The notes under the pieces are model-generated. The model was not told the DNA's origin. It worked only from the letters and a program-made list of their open reading frames with translations, and did no database searches. This document shows positions 14,651 to 22,120 of a stretch of 64,000 nucleotides of DNA, piece after piece. The translations under genes were made by a program, and so were the position numbers. Source of the stretch: Thermomicrobiales bacterium (GTDB taxonomy: Bacteria; Chloroflexota; Chloroflexia; Thermomicrobiales; UBA6265). Numbering within the stretch: the first letter of the stretch is position 1; the number at the start of each line of letters is the position of its first letter. The stretch is from positions 182,655-246,654 of the forward strand of contig JAGQGU010000001.1 of assembly GCA_020432165.1 (NCBI GenBank), read 5' to 3'.

Positions 14651-15934
14651 ATGAACCGCCAACACACCCACCGCCAGCAGCAGTGGTACATTGCGCGATC
14701 AATTTTGCTCTGCCTCATCCTGCTTGTCGCTGGCTTCTTCGGCGGCATGATGGTGCAACGCTTGCGCGCCGATAACTCCACCTCCACCTTTGCCGATCTC
14801 GATGCTGTCTATAAGGTCATTGAGGAGAACTACTACTACCTTCCCACCGATGAGGCCGGGCAGGAGCAGATGACCTCCGATATGGAGTCTGGTGCGATCG
14901 ACGGTGCGCTGGAAACACTTGATGATGCCTACACCCGCTATTTGGATGTGGACGAATCCCAGACCTCTCAGGAGAGTCTACAGGGTACGTATGGTGGTAT
15001 CGGTGTCGATATCGTGCTGGATGGCGATGTCGCCTTCGTGAGCGCGGTCGTGCCCGAATCGCCGGCGGATAAGGCGGGCATCCAGCGCGGCGATGTGATT
15101 GAGCAGGTCGATGGCGCGCGCGTGCAGACAACAGACATTGATGAAGCGACGCAGTTACTGCGCGGGGAGATCGGTGATCCTGTCACGATCACTACCATCA
15201 GACCCACTACGGGCGAAGCGCAGACACTGGAACTTACCTTTGAGGAGATTGTGGTCCCGCAGGTGACACTTGCCTTTGTTGAGGGCACTTCATATGCCTG
15301 GCTGCGAATCACGCTCTTCGGTGATGCCACGGTTCCGGATCTGGACAACGCCATTGCCGAGATTCGTGCGCATGGTTCCACGGGCATCATTCTCGATCTT
15401 CGCGGTAATGGTGGCGGTTGGGTCGATGCCGCTCGGGCGACCCTCGGACGTTTCCTCGATCCCTCGGTAGGTCCAGCCATGTACGAGGATCAATCGTCTG
15501 CCGATGGCGATCTCATCGCCATGCCGATCGAGACGGGCGATAGCGTCGAGATTCTCGACCTACCGATGGTGGTACTCATCGACGGCGGTACTGCCAGCGC
15601 TGCGGAGATTGTGGCCGGAGCACTCAAGGACTATGGACGCGCTACCGTGATTGGTCAGAACAGTTTTGGTAAGGGTTCGGTACAACGAATCTACGAGTTC
15701 TCCGATGGCTCCACCATGCGTGTCACAGTGGCGGAATGGTTTACGCCCAGCAAGTCCCGCATTCAAAGCGAAGGGATCCGGCCGGATATCGAGGTGGATG
15801 CTGGCGGTGATACGGATGCGAGCGATCCGATGCTGGAGGCAGCTATCATTCATCTGGATGCCCGTCTCGCACCAGCCGCAACTCCTGCGGCAAGTCCAGC
15901 CGCCAACGTTAACAAAATCACTCCCGGCATTTAA
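14651..15934 (+). CDS. S41 family C-terminal processing peptidase, membrane anchored
   Basis: This 427-residue protein has a single N-terminal anchor (about residues 15-34) and a PDZ domain (about 113-185) containing YGGIGVD and KAGIQRGDVIEQVDG. The protease core carries the Ser-Lys dyad S316 (in DGGTASAAEI) and K341 (in NSFGKGSVQ). CtpA/Prc-type proteases degrade or mature proteins outside the membrane after recognising their C-termini. The final residues are rich in Ala, Pro, Thr and Ser (PAATPAASPAA), a tail shared with other exported proteins in this window. It is divergent from coaX over 42 bases. The last codons overlap the first TTAAC of the probable Pho box. Confidence 0.93.
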   Translation: MNRQHTHRQQQWYIARSILLCLILLVAGFFGGMMVQRLRADNSTSTFADLDAVYKVIEENYYYLPTDEAGQEQMTSDMESGAIDGALETLDDAYTRYLDVDESQTSQESLQGTYGGIGVDIVLDGDVAFVSAVVPESPADKAGIQRGDVIEQVDGARVQTTDIDEATQLLRGEIGDPVTITTIRPTTGEAQTLELTFEEIVVPQVTLAFVEGTSYAWLRITLFGDATVPDLDNAIAEIRAHGSTGIILDLRGNGGGWVDAARATLGRFLDPSVGPAMYEDQSSADGDLIAMPIETGDSVEILDLPMVVLIDGGTASAAEIVAGALKDYGRATVIGQNSFGKGSVQRIYEFSDGSTMRVTVAEWFTPSKSRIQSEGIRPDIEVDAGGDTDASDPMLEAAIIHLDARLAPAATPAASPAANVNKITPGI

Positions 15935-15973
15935 CACAACCCTTACGCTGGCTTAACCTGGCGTCTCTATCAT
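15909..15973 (+). promoter_or_regulatory. Probable Pho box and -10 element upstream of the response regulator
   Basis: TTAAC occurs at 15909, 15931 and 15953, exactly 22 bases apart, with an extra CTTAC at 15942 halfway between the last two. A -10-like TATCAT lies at 15968-15973, ten bases after the last repeat, and there is no recognisable -35 box. In known PhoB/PhoP promoters, repeats of 11 or 22 bp replace the -35 element. The position ahead of the regulator and pst genes supports phosphate control, but the operator identity is inferred. Confidence 0.55.
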
Positions 15974-16000
15974 CCGGATGTACGTGAATGGAGAAGCGAG

Positions 16001-16819
16001 ATGCACTCGCTCCACACGCACATCGCGGAGGATGACTCGTTGGTAGTGAAGCAGGGCAAACCGCTTGTTCTTCTTGTTGAGGATGACCCCACGCTGCGCA
16101 GCACGTTGGGCTTCAATCTGACCCGAGAAGGGTATTCGGTGATTTCTGCGGAGGACGGGCTGGTAGCCCTCGCCGCCATTGAGGAGCATGGAAGTGATCT
16201 CAGTCTGATCATTCTGGATGTCATGTTGCCCGGAATGAACGGTCTGCAGGTCTTACGGCGCGTCCGTCAATCGCTCAATACGCCCGTGCTGATGCTTTCC
16301 GCCCGTGGTGAGGAGAACGATCGGATCGATGGCCTCGAGCTTGGTGCCGATGATTATGTGGTGAAGCCGTTCGCATTGCGCGAGCTGCTTGCCCGTGTCC
16401 GCACCCATGTTCGTCGTCACAACAATCCGGAGCTACGCCTACCTTCTGTGCTGGTTCGTGGTTCGTTGCGTATAGAGACCGATCAACGTTTGGTAACGGT
16501 CTCCGATCGCGAGCTGGAACTTCGTCCCAAAGAGTTCGGATTGCTGGCCACAATCGCTCTTGAACCGGGGCGAGTCTTTAGCCGCGAGGAACTGCTGGGA
16601 ACCGTATGGGGCCACGATGTGGTGGTCGATGCGCGGACGGTGGATGTCCATATCAGTTGGCTACGCAACAAGCTGGCAAACGCCGGTATGCAGGGCGAGG
16701 TTATCCGCACGGTCTATGGTTCAGGGTATCGCTTTGTCGGTTCGGCAGATGAATCCGAATCGCAGCGTCTCCCCTCGACAACCCACGAAGTCGATTCACG
16801 TATTAGCGTCTCTGGATAG
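16001..16819 (+). CDS. OmpR/PhoB-type response regulator, probable phosphate regulator
   Basis: This 272-residue two-domain regulator has a receiver with the acidic pocket VEDD at residues 26-29, phosphoacceptor D73, switch S100 and K122 in VVKPFALREL. A winged-helix DNA-binding domain spans about residues 148-245, ending with VRTVYGSGYRFVG. The start used is the ATG at 16001; the conserved domain begins about 20 residues in, so a later GTG start is possible. Because it directly precedes pstSCAB-phoU and follows a Pho-box-like array, a PhoB/PhoP role is likely and it may regulate itself. No sensor histidine kinase gene is next to it. Confidence 0.92.
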   Translation: MHSLHTHIAEDDSLVVKQGKPLVLLVEDDPTLRSTLGFNLTREGYSVISAEDGLVALAAIEEHGSDLSLIILDVMLPGMNGLQVLRRVRQSLNTPVLMLSARGEENDRIDGLELGADDYVVKPFALRELLARVRTHVRRHNNPELRLPSVLVRGSLRIETDQRLVTVSDRELELRPKEFGLLATIALEPGRVFSREELLGTVWGHDVVVDARTVDVHISWLRNKLANAGMQGEVIRTVYGSGYRFVGSADESESQRLPSTTHEVDSRISVSG

Positions 16820-16823
16820 TGGG

Positions 16824-16842
16824 ACCGGCACAGCCGGTTTTT
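16824..16842 (+). terminator. Short hairpin terminator after the response regulator
   Basis: ACCGGC (16824-16829) / GCCGGT (16833-16838) with loop ACA is followed by TTTT. It lies five bases past the stop, so regulator and pstS may be only partly co-transcribed. Confidence 0.6.
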
Positions 16843-16913
16843 GGAAGTCAACGAATCTAGTCGGATGCTCAGCACATGCTGGCATCACATCGGATCTTGA
16901 GGAGTCTTTGCAC

Positions 16914-17954
16914 ATGGAACTCATGAACATCAAGCTCAATCGTCGTTCACTGGCAGCCATCACGGCTGGTACGGTTGCTCTCGCTCCATTCGGTCGTATC
17001 TTTGCCCAGGATGAAAACGTTGTCACCTATGAGGCACCTGAGAACGTAGGCGATCTCTCCGGATCGTTTGAGTCCGATGGTTCCTCCACACTCGGTCCGC
17101 TGACCGAGGCTGCGATCGAAGAGTTCGCGGCGATCGCGCCAAATGTCCGCATCACCAATGGCATTTCCGGTACTGGTGGTGGTTTCGAGCGCTTCACCAA
17201 GGGTGAGATCGCCATTGCCAACGCTTCTCGACCAATCAAGGATTCTGAGGCGGAAGCAGCTGCCGCAGCCGGTATTGCCTGGTACCAATTCGATGTCGCG
17301 TATGACGGTATCACGGTCGTTGTTAGTGCCGAGAACGATTTCATCACCGATCTCACCGTCGAGGAACTTGCCAATATTTGGGCCTCCGATGGTGGTGTTA
17401 CCACCTGGGCGGATGTCCGCGCCGAGTGGCCGGCGGAGAATATCGAGCTTTACGGACCGGGCACTGCATCCGGCACCTTCGATTTCTTCAACGAAGCCAT
17501 CCTCGGTGAGCGCGAGGTTCGCACCGACTACACGCCCAGTGAGGATGACAATGTACTGGTGCAGGGAGTAGCCGGCAGTGCCAATGCGCTCGGTTACTTC
17601 GGATTCTCCTACTACGAAGAGAATCAGGACATCCTCAAGGCCGTCGCTGTCGACAATGGCGCCGGTGCTGTTGCGCCGAGCGTTGAGACGATCTCCGATG
17701 GCACCTATGCACCACTCGGTCGCACGCTCTTCATCTACGTTTCGGCCAGCGAGCTCCAGGGTCGAGCAGAGGTTGCCGAGTTCGTGAAGTTCTACGCGGC
17801 TACCGCCGATGAACTCGCACCATCGGTTGGCTACATCTCGCTGCACGCCGACGATCAGCAGTCCACCTGGGACAAGGTTGTTGGAGCCATTGATGGTTCG
17901 GTAGCGCCGGATTCCGATTCCTTCGGCACACCAGAGGCGAGCCCTGCCGCCTAG
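16914..17954 (+). CDS. pstS: Phosphate ABC transporter substrate-binding protein PstS
   Basis: This 346-residue exported protein captures inorganic phosphate outside the membrane and passes it to PstCA. The N-terminus has a twin-arginine-like segment (NRRSLAAITAG) ending near IFAQ. The phosphate-binding loops are visible as SDGSSTLGPLTEAA and GISGTGGGFERF near residues 55 and 80. The C-terminus ends GTPEASPAA, the Ala/Thr/Pro/Ser tail seen on other exported proteins here. The start at 16914 follows TGAGGAG; an open frame running back to 16560 only shadows the regulator gene. No lipobox Cys is present, so anchoring, if any, must be by another route. Confidence 0.95.
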   Translation: MELMNIKLNRRSLAAITAGTVALAPFGRIFAQDENVVTYEAPENVGDLSGSFESDGSSTLGPLTEAAIEEFAAIAPNVRITNGISGTGGGFERFTKGEIAIANASRPIKDSEAEAAAAAGIAWYQFDVAYDGITVVVSAENDFITDLTVEELANIWASDGGVTTWADVRAEWPAENIELYGPGTASGTFDFFNEAILGEREVRTDYTPSEDDNVLVQGVAGSANALGYFGFSYYEENQDILKAVAVDNGAGAVAPSVETISDGTYAPLGRTLFIYVSASELQGRAEVAEFVKFYAATADELAPSVGYISLHADDQQSTWDKVVGAIDGSVAPDSDSFGTPEASPAA

Positions 17955-18028: not shown

Positions 18029-19003
18029 GTGTCCAGCACCGTGGCACCACTTCGGCCGGATGATCGGCCACCACTGAATCTCACCGGTAAGAAAAGTCGG
18101 CAAAGATCAGAGGAAGTTATCAAATATGCGTTGATTGCCTGCGCGCTCGTCACACTTCTGACGACGGTGGGCATCATTGGCGTCTTGCTCTTTGAGGCAG
18201 CCAAATTCTTCGCTGAAGTGCCGATCTGGGACTTTCTCAGCGGTACTACCTGGACACCACTCTTCGCCGGCTCTCAGCAGGAGTTCGGTGTGCTCCCGTT
18301 GGTTATGGGCACGCTCATGACCAGTCTGGTTGCGGCGTGTATCTCCCTGCCACTCGGGCTCGCAGCCGCTATCTATTTGAGTGAGTTTGCCAGCGAACGC
18401 GCTCGATCTATCCTCAAGCCGGTTCTGGAAGTGCTAGCCGGTGTACCGACGATCGTTTATGGCTTCTTCGCGCTCACATTCATCACGCCAGTCATTCTCG
18501 AGCCACTCTTTCCCAATATCGGCACATTCAACGGACTCAGCGCTGGTATCGCCATCGGTATCATGGCCATGCCGACTGTCGCCTCGCTCTCTGAAGATGC
18601 GCTACGAGCTGTGCCGCGTAGCCTGCGTGAGGCCGCATACGGGCTCGGTGCCACCAAGTTCGAAGCTACCGCGCGGGTGGTTGTTCCCGCGGCGATCTCC
18701 GGTATCGTCGCCTCATTCATCCTGGCCATCAGCCGTGCCATCGGCGAGACGATGATCGTTGCAGTCGCTGCTGGTCAGAGTCCGGCTGGACAATCTGGTG
18801 CGAGTAACAGCGTCTTCGATCTCATGAACAGCATGCAAACCATGACCGGGTTCATCGCCTACACCTTCAGCAGCGATGTCGCCCGCGATTCGGTCGCATT
18901 CTATTCGCTCTTAGGGGTTGGTCTACTGCTCTTCATCATGACATTTGGCATGAATCTGGCCAGTCAATGGGTCACACGCAAGTATCGGGAGGAGTACGAA
19001 TGA
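18029..19003 (+). CDS. pstC: Phosphate ABC transporter permease PstC
   Basis: This 324-residue inner-membrane permease forms the phosphate channel with PstA. It has about six membrane helices and the ABC permease coupling-loop region EDALRAVPRSLREAAYGLGATKFEA followed by IGETMIVAVAAG. The GTG at 18029 is chosen because AGGAGGGC sits at the right distance; a nearby ATG at 18025 is in another frame. Its stop overlaps the pstA start by four bases (ATGA), so the two permeases are translationally coupled. Confidence 0.96.
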   Translation: MSSTVAPLRPDDRPPLNLTGKKSRQRSEEVIKYALIACALVTLLTTVGIIGVLLFEAAKFFAEVPIWDFLSGTTWTPLFAGSQQEFGVLPLVMGTLMTSLVAACISLPLGLAAAIYLSEFASERARSILKPVLEVLAGVPTIVYGFFALTFITPVILEPLFPNIGTFNGLSAGIAIGIMAMPTVASLSEDALRAVPRSLREAAYGLGATKFEATARVVVPAAISGIVASFILAISRAIGETMIVAVAAGQSPAGQSGASNSVFDLMNSMQTMTGFIAYTFSSDVARDSVAFYSLLGVGLLLFIMTFGMNLASQWVTRKYREEYE

Positions 19004-19902
19004 GTCTGGATGCGAAATCCACCGGTCTCGCCACCTCCGTCTATTCGCCACGGATCGGCACTCGCCAGTTCATCGGCAAGGTATGGCGCTGGATCTTCTT
19101 TGGTTCCACTGCTTTGGCGATCGTTCTGCTTGGCTTGCTGCTCTGGTCGATTATCGAACCTGGCTGGAGTTGGCTGAGTTGGAACCTCATTGCCAATCCT
19201 CCTTCCCGTATTGCTGAGAAGGCAGGTATGAATCCGGCTATCTGGGGTTCACTCTGGATCGTGCTGGGTTCGGGCATCGGCGCGTTTGTGGTGGGGTTGG
19301 GTACAGCCATTTATCTGGAGGAGTACGCAGCCAAGGGTAGGTTCAACGACTTTATCCAGACCAATATCGCCAACCTCGCCGGTGTGCCGAGTATCGTCTA
19401 CGGTCTGTTGGGTCTTCTGGTCTTCGTCGATCTGCTGCATATGGGACGCTCACTCATCGCAGGCTGTCTCACTATGGCGTTGCTGATTCTGCCGGTAGTG
19501 GTAATCAGTTCGCGGGAGGCGATTCGCGCAGTACCGAGCAGTTTGCGCGAGGCGAGCTATGGGCTGGGTGCCACCCGTTGGCAAACGATTTGGCATCATG
19601 TTCTCCCCGCCGCCTTCCCAGGTGTGCTCACCGGCATCATTCTCGCCATGAGCCGCGCCATCGGTGAAACTGCTCCACTGCTCGTTGTGGGTGGAGCCAG
19701 TCAGGTGTTGTGGAAGCCGGATGGTCTCTTCTCCACGTTCATGGTCATGCCGCTGCAGATCTATAACTGGACCGGTCGACCACAAGAAGAGTTTGAGCAC
19801 CTCGCCGCTGCCGCCATCATCGTGCTCATGATCATCCTTCTCCTCATGAACTCCGTCGCAATCGGCCTTCGTCAGCACTTCAGCAAGAAAGCAAGGTGGT
19901 AA
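19000..19902 (+). CDS. pstA: Phosphate ABC transporter permease PstA
   Basis: This 300-residue membrane permease pairs with PstC. It shows six hydrophobic segments and a coupling loop REAIRAVPSSLREASYGLG followed by IGETAPLLVVGGA. The start ATG at 19000 overlaps the pstC stop and follows GGGAGGAG. The preceding helix region and PSIVYGLLGLLVFVD are typical of PstA. It is followed after three bases by pstB. Confidence 0.96.
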   Translation: MSLDAKSTGLATSVYSPRIGTRQFIGKVWRWIFFGSTALAIVLLGLLLWSIIEPGWSWLSWNLIANPPSRIAEKAGMNPAIWGSLWIVLGSGIGAFVVGLGTAIYLEEYAAKGRFNDFIQTNIANLAGVPSIVYGLLGLLVFVDLLHMGRSLIAGCLTMALLILPVVVISSREAIRAVPSSLREASYGLGATRWQTIWHHVLPAAFPGVLTGIILAMSRAIGETAPLLVVGGASQVLWKPDGLFSTFMVMPLQIYNWTGRPQEEFEHLAAAAIIVLMIILLLMNSVAIGLRQHFSKKARW

Positions 19903-19905
19903 TCC

Positions 19906-20805
19906 ATGTCCGACACACTCACCATGACCATGAATCCAACGGAAAGCTCTACACATCTGGAATCCAACCACGACGCGGTCGTCAAGATTCCAGGAATCAG
20001 CGCCCAGGCTTTTCAGCAGGTGCAGAAGTCGACCACGAAGAAGAACAGTGTGCTCGAGCTTAAGGATTTGAACGTCCACTATGGCAATTTTCATGCCGTG
20101 AACAACGTAAATCTGTCCATTCCCGAGAAATCCATCACCGCTTTTATCGGACCCTCCGGTTGTGGCAAGAGTACGGTGCTGCGCTGCATCAACCGCATGA
20201 ACGATCTCATCCCCTCAGCCCGGGTCGATGGCGAGATTCTCTATCATGGCCAGGATGTGAATGCGCGTGGTGTCGATCCGGTGGAAGTTCGCCGCCGTAT
20301 CGGTATGGTTTTTCAGCGTCCGAATCCCTTCCCCAAGAGCATTTACGAGAATGTTGCCTGGGGAGCGCGTATCAATGGTTATAAGGGCAACTTCGATGAA
20401 CTGGTCGAGGCGAGCCTCGTTCGCGCAGCTCTCTGGGACGAAGTGAAGGACAAGCTGAAGGAGAGCGGCCTGGGCCTCTCTGGCGGACAGCAACAGCGAC
20501 TCTGCATCGCCCGTGCGCTTGCCACCAATCCGGATGTGATTCTGCTGGATGAGCCCGCCTCGGCGCTGGATCCTATTTCCACGTTGAAGATCGAGGATCT
20601 GCTGCGCGAACTGGAATCCGAATACACCATCGTCATCGTCACCCACAATATGCAGCAGGCTGCCCGCGTAAGTGACCAAACGGTCTTCTACTCCCTGAAC
20701 GAGAACCGCCAGGGTATTCTTGTTGAGTCCGGTCCCACCCAGAAAATGTTCACCCGCCCGGACGATCCGCGCACAGAGGGATACATCTCGGGTCGCTTCG
20801 GATAA
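19906..20805 (+). CDS. pstB: Phosphate ABC transporter ATP-binding protein PstB
   Basis: This 299-residue ATPase energises PstCA. Walker A is GPSGCGKST at residues 82-90, the signature is LSGGQQQR, and Walker B is [13 protein letters not shown]. The family usually begins near the [14 protein letters not shown] strand; here about 45 extra residues rich in Thr, Ser and Lys precede it. The ATG at 19906 lies three bases after the pstA stop, so the extension appears to be translated. Its function is unknown. Confidence 0.96.
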
Positions 20806-20963: not shown

Positions 20964-21644
20964 ATGTCGGTACGATCGAACTTTGACCAACAATTGCAGG
21001 GGCTCAGCGATCAGGTTGTTACCATGGCCAGCATGGTTGACAAGGCTATCTCGCGATCACTGGAAGCATTGCGGCTGCAGAATGTTGCGCTCGCCGACGA
21101 AGTGCAACGCAGTGACAACGCTATCAATCAACTGCACCGGGCCGGAGAAGAGCGTGCTGTCGTTCTCATCGCTCTACAGGGACCGGTCGGTAGTGACGTC
21201 CGCCGGGTTGCCAGCGCGATCAGCATCTTCTCGAATCTGGAGCGTATGGGTGACTATGCAGCGGGAATCGCCCGCATCGTGGTCGAGGGTTCGGGCGACA
21301 GTTTGCTGAAGCCATTGGTGGATATCCCCAACATGGGAGTGATTGCCAGGGATATGCTGGATGCTGCGATCCAGGCCTATGTGAACAATGATGTCGAGGC
21401 TGCCCGCGCCGTGGCCGCCCGCGACGATGAGCTGGACGACCTCTACGACGCGATCGTCACCGAGCTGATGGATTACATGGTGAATGACCCCTCGACGGTC
21501 GCACGAGCTACGCACCTGCTTTGGGTCGCGCACAATCTGGAACGCATCGGTGATCGGGTGACGAATATCTGCGAACGTGTTGTCTATATCGTGACCGGTG
21601 ATTACGAGGAGCTTGATGGTCCTCATATCGGCAGGATTGACTAG
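20964..21644 (+). CDS. phoU: Phosphate signalling complex protein PhoU
   Basis: This 226-residue all-helical protein has the two PhoU repeats, with the metal-binding signature RMGDYAAGIARI near residue 95 and NLERIGDRVTNICERVVYI near the end. PhoU links the Pst transporter to the phosphate two-component system and dampens it when phosphate is plentiful. It lies 158 bases after pstB, a gap with small hairpin potential but no clear terminator. Its TAG stop shares the CTAG tetramer with the stop of the convergent receiver gene. Confidence 0.95.
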   Translation: MSVRSNFDQQLQGLSDQVVTMASMVDKAISRSLEALRLQNVALADEVQRSDNAINQLHRAGEERAVVLIALQGPVGSDVRRVASAISIFSNLERMGDYAAGIARIVVEGSGDSLLKPLVDIPNMGVIARDMLDAAIQAYVNNDVEAARAVAARDDELDDLYDAIVTELMDYMVNDPSTVARATHLLWVAHNLERIGDRVTNICERVVYIVTGDYEELDGPHIGRID

Positions 21645-22120
21645 TTTCGCGTTGGATCGTCGGACATTGGCATATCCGGGTTATTGGCGCGCCATTCCTC
21701 GAAAACGCGGTGCAGCTCCGGGACAAGCTCATCCAACTCGATCGGAGCGTGGAGCATACGCTCAATGCCCATCTTGCGCTGCATATCCGGCGCTATTTCT
21801 ATCGGCCTTTCCGAGATCACGACAACAGGGGCGGAGGTGCGTGCCGCCTGTTCTTGTACGCGGCTGGAGTTCCCTCGTAACCGCAGCATCAGTTCTTCGG
21901 CGTTGAAGCTCCGTAGTCCGTAATCCATGATGATCAGATCGAACTGGCGGAGGCGAAAAACCTCCAGCACCTGGAGTCCACTCGAGATCACCGTCGTCCA
22001 AAATCCGCCAAGCGGTAGACCTTCGTTGAGGAAGGTCGCTAGCTCGGGATCATCGGCAACGATCAGTACATGTGGTCGCTCGTAGTGCTTGCGCGCCTGC
22101 AGGAGGGGACGATCGCTCAT
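21641..22120 (-). CDS. Stand-alone response-regulator receiver protein, degenerate
   Basis: This 159-residue protein is a single receiver domain with no output domain. The acidic pocket ADDPE (residues 22-26), the phosphoacceptor D66 in IIMDYGL, and switch S103 are present. The conserved Lys before the cis-Pro is missing: the sequence there reads MLHAPIEL. It may therefore be phosphorylated weakly or act without phosphorylation. Its ATG overlaps the stop of the M14 peptidase gene (ATGA), so the two are coupled. The pairing suggests a shared process, but none can be named. It ends convergently against phoU, sharing a CTAG. Confidence 0.82.
   Translation of the reverse strand: MSDRPLLQARKHYERPHVLIVADDPELATFLNEGLPLGGFWTTVISSGLQVLEVFRLRQFDLIIMDYGLRSFNAEELMLRLRGNSSRVQEQAARTSAPVVVISERPIEIAPDMQRKMGIERMLHAPIELDELVPELHRVFEEWRANNPDMPMSDDPTRN

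Follow-up and report, generated by a model that had tools for sequence, protein, structure and literature searches.

A phosphate gene set on the plus strand of the window (the whole stretch of DNA that was analysed, 64,000 nucleotides) begins with a gene for a PhoB-like response regulator, continues through pstSCAB to phoU, and is preceded by a gene for an S41 peptidase. A run of direct repeats extends from the end of the peptidase gene towards the regulator gene (Table 1). The sequence of positions 15908-15973 is GTTAACAAAATCACTCCCGGCATTTAACACAACCCTTACGCTGGCTTAACCTGGCGTCTCTATCAT. As the initial annotation had noted, TTAAC begins at 15909, 15931 and 15953, with a CTTAC interposed at 15942-15946, when the letters are read directly in the window. 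The exact 22-base period that it described holds as a spacing (TTAAC-N17-TTAAC), but the true period is 11 bp, and 22 bp corresponds to two units. The complete series is TTAAC at 15909, a degenerate ACTCC at 15920, TTAAC at 15931, CTTAC at 15942 and TTAAC at 15953. The first TTAAC wholly, and the second mostly, falls inside the 3' end of the peptidase gene (14651-15934).

The rest of that description also stands. Exactly ten bases separate the last TTAAC from a TATCAT -10 element at 15968-15973, and a search of 15700-17000 finds no sigma-70 promoter that has a -35 box. This is the geometry of a Pho-type activator promoter, in which 11-bp repeats occupy the place of the -35 element and end 10 bp before the -10, as in E. 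coli. The exact pattern TTAAC-N17-TTAAC occurs twice in the window and in none of 100 shuffles, and these two occurrences are the only ones in the 3.2 Mb genome. A genome scan for the same two-unit pattern with one mismatch was discarded. Its matches were fewer than those of a reversed-pattern control, and two-unit TTAAC patterns are therefore uninformative.

Table 1. Features of the phosphate locus (window coordinates)
Feature	Position	Strand	Basis or remark
S41 C-terminal processing peptidase, end overlaps box	14651-15934	+	TIGR00225 above cut-off; synteny kept in 20 of 21 family loci
Outer TTAAC unit, 22 bp 5' of core box	15909-15913	+	Kept at the same place in same-genus G030 and G029
Predicted core Pho box plus -10, profile R1 match	15929-15972	+	24.7 bits, E 1.8e-6 in window
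Box unit 1, TTAAC	15931-15935	+	Four or more of the five bases agree in 21 of 23 loci
Box unit 2, CTTAC	15942-15946	+	Window sequence, family motif, anchored loci
Box unit 3, TTAAC	15953-15957	+	Four or more of the five bases agree in 20 of 23 loci
-10 element TATCAT, 10 bp past unit 3, no -35	15968-15973	+	TANNNT spacing in 23 loci
phoB-like OmpR-family response regulator, presumably the protein that binds the box and its first target	16001-16819	+	Best model TIGR02154
pstS, phosphate-binding protein	16914-17954	+	TIGR02136 above cut-off
pstC, permease	18029-19003	+	TIGR02138 above cut-off
pstA, permease (coordinates of the listed ORF; translation may begin later)	18967-19902	+	TIGR00974 above cut-off
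pstB, ATPase	19906-20805	+	TIGR00972 above cut-off
phoU	20964-21644	+	TIGR02135 above cut-off

Two further features of the locus may be mentioned. Between phoB and pstS, a hairpin (ACCGGC-ACA-GCCGGT, then TTTT) at 16824-16842 has a T run too short for the terminator scan, and may attenuate transcription into the pst genes. At the other end, a 159-aa receiver-domain protein with no output domain is encoded on the minus strand (21641-22120), convergent with phoU and overlapping its end.

Recurrence of the repeats in related genomes

At the threshold used, 21 of 32 genomes of the family encode a phoB-like regulator. An ungapped motif search of their 21 phoB upstream regions returned ATTTAAC-N6-CTTAC-N6-TTAAC-N10-TANNNT, which carries 35.1 bits, as against 12.5-13.7 bits in eight shuffled sets. 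In these 21 relatives the element consists of three YTWAC-N6 units, then 10-11 bp and TANNNT. When 23 loci are anchored on unit 1, units match at 0, +11 and +22, and some loci have an outer unit at -22 or -11. TANNNT follows unit 3 at 10 bp in 19 of these loci and at 11 bp in three. The -22 unit keeps at least four of five bases in 7 of 22 relatives. Most family loci share the gene order S41-phoB-pstS, with the peptidase gene found in 20 of 21.

A sequence-only profile (R1) was built from 20 family boxes. In the window's own genome, it has one match at E<=10 among the best 150 of 185 candidates, the phoB promoter (E 9e-5), and no second strong box among them. The scan found no second box before pstS in the window. 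Nor does a box precede the gene for the genome's second PstS-like protein (C21), and no PhoD phosphatase was found in the genome. Over the 32 family genomes there is essentially one site per genome. Sites outside the training set precede phoB in G029 and G025 and pstS in G022, where phoB is absent from the locus and the S41 gene directly precedes pstS. Matches also lie upstream of phoB-pstS in G340, G343 and G353, which belong to two further families of the order.

Over 301 genomes of the phylum, R1 finds 16 other matches, six of which precede phosphate genes of Chloroflexota, no more than about 150 bp from the gene start: pstS in G044, G203, G277 and G125 (G203 and G277 being close relatives of each other), phnD in G044 and pstC in G150. 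A control profile, the columns of R1 in reverse order, gave 12 matches in the same 301 genomes, none of them beside a pst, pho or phn gene. The one-sided Fisher probability for 6 of 16 versus 0 of 12, calculated by hand, is 0.02. The match totals (16 versus 12) say little, and the force of the comparison lies in the identity of the genes. Less certain R1 matches involve an aminoethylphosphonate-like binding protein, PhoB-like regulators, a UgpA-like permease, a PHP phosphoesterase, a metallo-beta-lactamase-fold hydrolase and a pyrophosphatase. In about half of the matches across the phylum, no phosphate gene is evident. Several profile matches without such a gene (at tilS, DUF1800, GAF proteins and a glycosyltransferase) were taken as chance.

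The promoter element recurs together with the repeats. Ten held-out phosphate sites were examined for it (the held-out set minus phoB of G029 and G025), and nine have the repeats with TANNNT at 10 bp. At pstS of G044, the unit adjoining the -10 is degenerate. The -10 is not independent evidence where the profile match reaches column 40 or beyond. At phnD of G044 it is independent, because the match ended before the -10.

The regulator, its candidate kinase and known Pho boxes

The regulator encoded at 16001-16819 scores best against the PhoB model TIGR02154 but falls short of its curated cut-off (226.9 versus 296.2 bits), and for this reason it is named PhoB-like. As is required of a functional PhoB, it is an OmpR-type regulator encoded with pstSCAB-phoU. 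Its DNA-binding domain is nearest to that of E. coli PhoB among solved structures, and its nearest named relative, from a Chloroflexia MAG, is 63% identical. The recognition helix is nearly invariant in the family, reading RTVDVHISWLR or, with its one variable position, RTVDVH[IV]SWLR, and RTIDVHMSWLR in G025. E. coli PhoB has RTVDVHIRRLR, so that HIRRLR is replaced by HISWLR in the window regulator. Because the helix differs, a site with different letters and the same geometry is expected. Almost no boxes are found upstream of Chloroflexia PhoB homologues at 45-50% identity, and these proteins are probably paralogues or other regulators.

Ten OmpR-type regulators of the genome, the window regulator included, align over both receiver and DNA-binding domains, and one of the nine others is 48% identical to it. 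A PhoR-like kinase adjoins nine of the ten. The window regulator is the exception, and no kinase gene occurs in the phoB-pstSCAB-phoU operon. Outside the window, one PhoR-like kinase with GAF, PAS, HisKA and HATPase domains (G000:C76:148169-149215; loci L218 and L223) is the only one found without a neighbouring regulator, and no homologue of the window regulator is encoded within 2 kb of it. By elimination, this kinase is the best candidate for the partner of the orphan PhoB-like regulator.

Sites at which regulators land during phosphate starvation are well known in other bacteria. The Pho box of E. coli PhoB is made of CTGTCAT repeats (PMC4415409, PMC1906773), arranged as 11-bp repeats that end 10 bp before the -10 (PMC1906773). 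The window element likewise has 11-bp direct repeats that replace the -35 and stand 10 bp before a TANNNT-type -10, but its core is TTAAC rather than TGTCA; the initial annotation had noted that the motif is not the enterobacterial one. The PhoP box of Streptomyces is built from 11-nt units with the sequence GTTCACC (PMC4415409, PMC6754071). It shares the direct repeat units of the window element, and its TTCAC is one base from TTAAC. It belongs to another phylum, and the C of its core is an A in the window.

The closest letters are those of the cyanobacterial SphR box, CTTAACCT, which is repeated in three tandem copies with 3-bp linkers to give 11-bp repeats (PMC1906773). It shares with the window element the 11-bp tandem repeats, the TTAAC core and a position before pstS and other phosphate genes, and an exact copy of CTTAACCT is present at 15952-15959. 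The sphX box of Synechocystis, TTTAACCAaacCTTTACTAgggCTTAACCT (PMC1906773), is nearly the window's reading. A TTAAC-type motif is thus not new among bacteria. However, the window element lacks a conserved CT after TTAAC, has CTTAC as its middle unit, keeps a strict 10 bp to the -10 and precedes the regulator gene itself, and the phylum is a different one. The element resembles the SphR box but is not filed as one, because only the unit at 15952-15959 matches all eight bases of a box defined by 8-bp copies with 3-bp linkers. The literature searched, which covered few subscription journals, yielded no account of a Pho box in Chloroflexota.

A predicted Pho box and its alternatives

The repeats, their spacing, their near-uniqueness in the genome, their conservation and their position at phosphate genes across the phylum are all direct observations. 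A Pho box is recognized by at least two direct repeats with an 11-bp period, by a location that replaces the -35, some 10 bp before a sigma-70 -10, and by recurrence before phosphate-acquisition genes. The phosphorylated regulator would further be expected to bind such a box and to raise transcription at low phosphate. The window element has the first two properties, and in relatives it recurs before phoB, pstS, pstC and phnD. The initial annotation had suggested that it could define the Pho box of this lineage and that the phosphate genes of relatives should be scanned. The element is found before phoB in the family, before phoB-pstS in the order and before pstS, pstC or phnD in the phylum, and the reversed profile finds no phosphate gene. 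Family conservation, the held-out phosphate sites and the reversed control therefore point to the Pho box of this lineage, and we assign the element to the phoB-pstSCAB-phoU operon with high confidence. It is almost certainly where the regulator of phosphate starvation lands on the DNA to activate its own gene and, behind it, those of the importer. The PhoB-like regulator very probably is the protein that binds the box and activates the operon.

By analogy with known PhoB biology, a sensor kinase would phosphorylate the PhoB-like regulator when phosphate is scarce. Regulator dimers would then bind the 11-bp repeats at 15931-15957 head-to-tail on one face of the DNA, helped by the outer unit at 15909. 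The bound dimers would substitute for a -35 and keep RNA polymerase with sigma-70 at the -10 (TATCAT, 15968). Transcription would start near 15980 and run into phoB and the pst genes, and the regulator would thereby amplify both itself and the importer.

A different OmpR-family regulator, such as the C41 paralogue or a protein of WalR/RpaB type, could instead bind the repeats and control phoB. OmpR-family regulators often bind tandem repeats of some 10-11 bp, and the sites of WalR/RpaB-like regulators are likewise tandem TTAC-like repeats. The genome supplies candidates among its nine additional OmpR-type regulators. This alternative is nevertheless improbable. Among the best 150 of 185 candidates, the sole match of the profile in its own genome is the phoB promoter, and matches elsewhere include phosphate and phosphonate genes, as a phosphate regulator predicts. 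For a cell-wall or light-stress regulator, other target genes would be expected.

Still less probable is that the Pho box assignment mistakes shared descent for function, with the letters conserved merely as part of a syntenic S41-phoB-pstS region or as the coding end of the S41 gene. The prevailing gene order and the overlap of the first units with the S41 gene in the window are in keeping with this explanation. However, beyond the closest relatives the identity between S41 proteins is only 35-52%, and many loci have the matched S41 end at a good distance upstream of the box. In G340, G343 and G353, phoB has no visible S41 homologue beside it. Shared descent is contradicted by the cross-family sites, at which the element also precedes pstS, pstC and phnD. 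Finally, three TTAAC words at one promoter might be chance A+T-rich repeats near an ordinary promoter, a reading with a negligible probability that is refuted by the shuffles (0 of 100), the 35 bits over 21 relatives and the fixed 10-bp spacing to the -10.

Extent of the regulon and other candidate boxes

For Chloroflexota, a large phylum most of whose members are uncultured, these results supply a predicted operator sequence of phosphate control. The box allows Pho regulons to be predicted in this group, and it links a change in the recognition helix of a regulator with a change in its DNA site. We tentatively raise the possibility, which we consider less likely than its opposite, that the strong-box Pho regulon has shrunk here to one self-regulated operon under the unlinked GAF-PAS kinase, with wider sets in relatives across the phylum (pstS, phnD, a ugp-like permease and phosphoesterases). 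If so, a TTAAC-type box would be common to Chloroflexota and Cyanobacteria, by descent or by convergence.

Several strong boxes occur in G350, a genome of another family. They precede genes for a UgpA-like permease, a PHP phosphoesterase, and a metallo-beta-lactamase-fold hydrolase with a permease (L209, L213 and L215), which suggests a wider Pho regulon. Among twelve matches without a phosphate gene, L155, L160 and L166 show every part of the architecture and could likewise be genuine boxes. At L155 (1501-1535, G081) it stands before a gene for a secreted protein that belongs to no Pfam family, and at L160 (1501-1538, G092) before a phosphodiester glycosidase gene; both are possible new members of the Pho regulon. 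Full Pho-box-like architecture is also found at L153 (1501-1540, G125), between two divergent genes, urtA (urea transporter) and one for a PhoB-like regulator. In Synechocystis, urtA is phosphate-responsive (PMC1906773).
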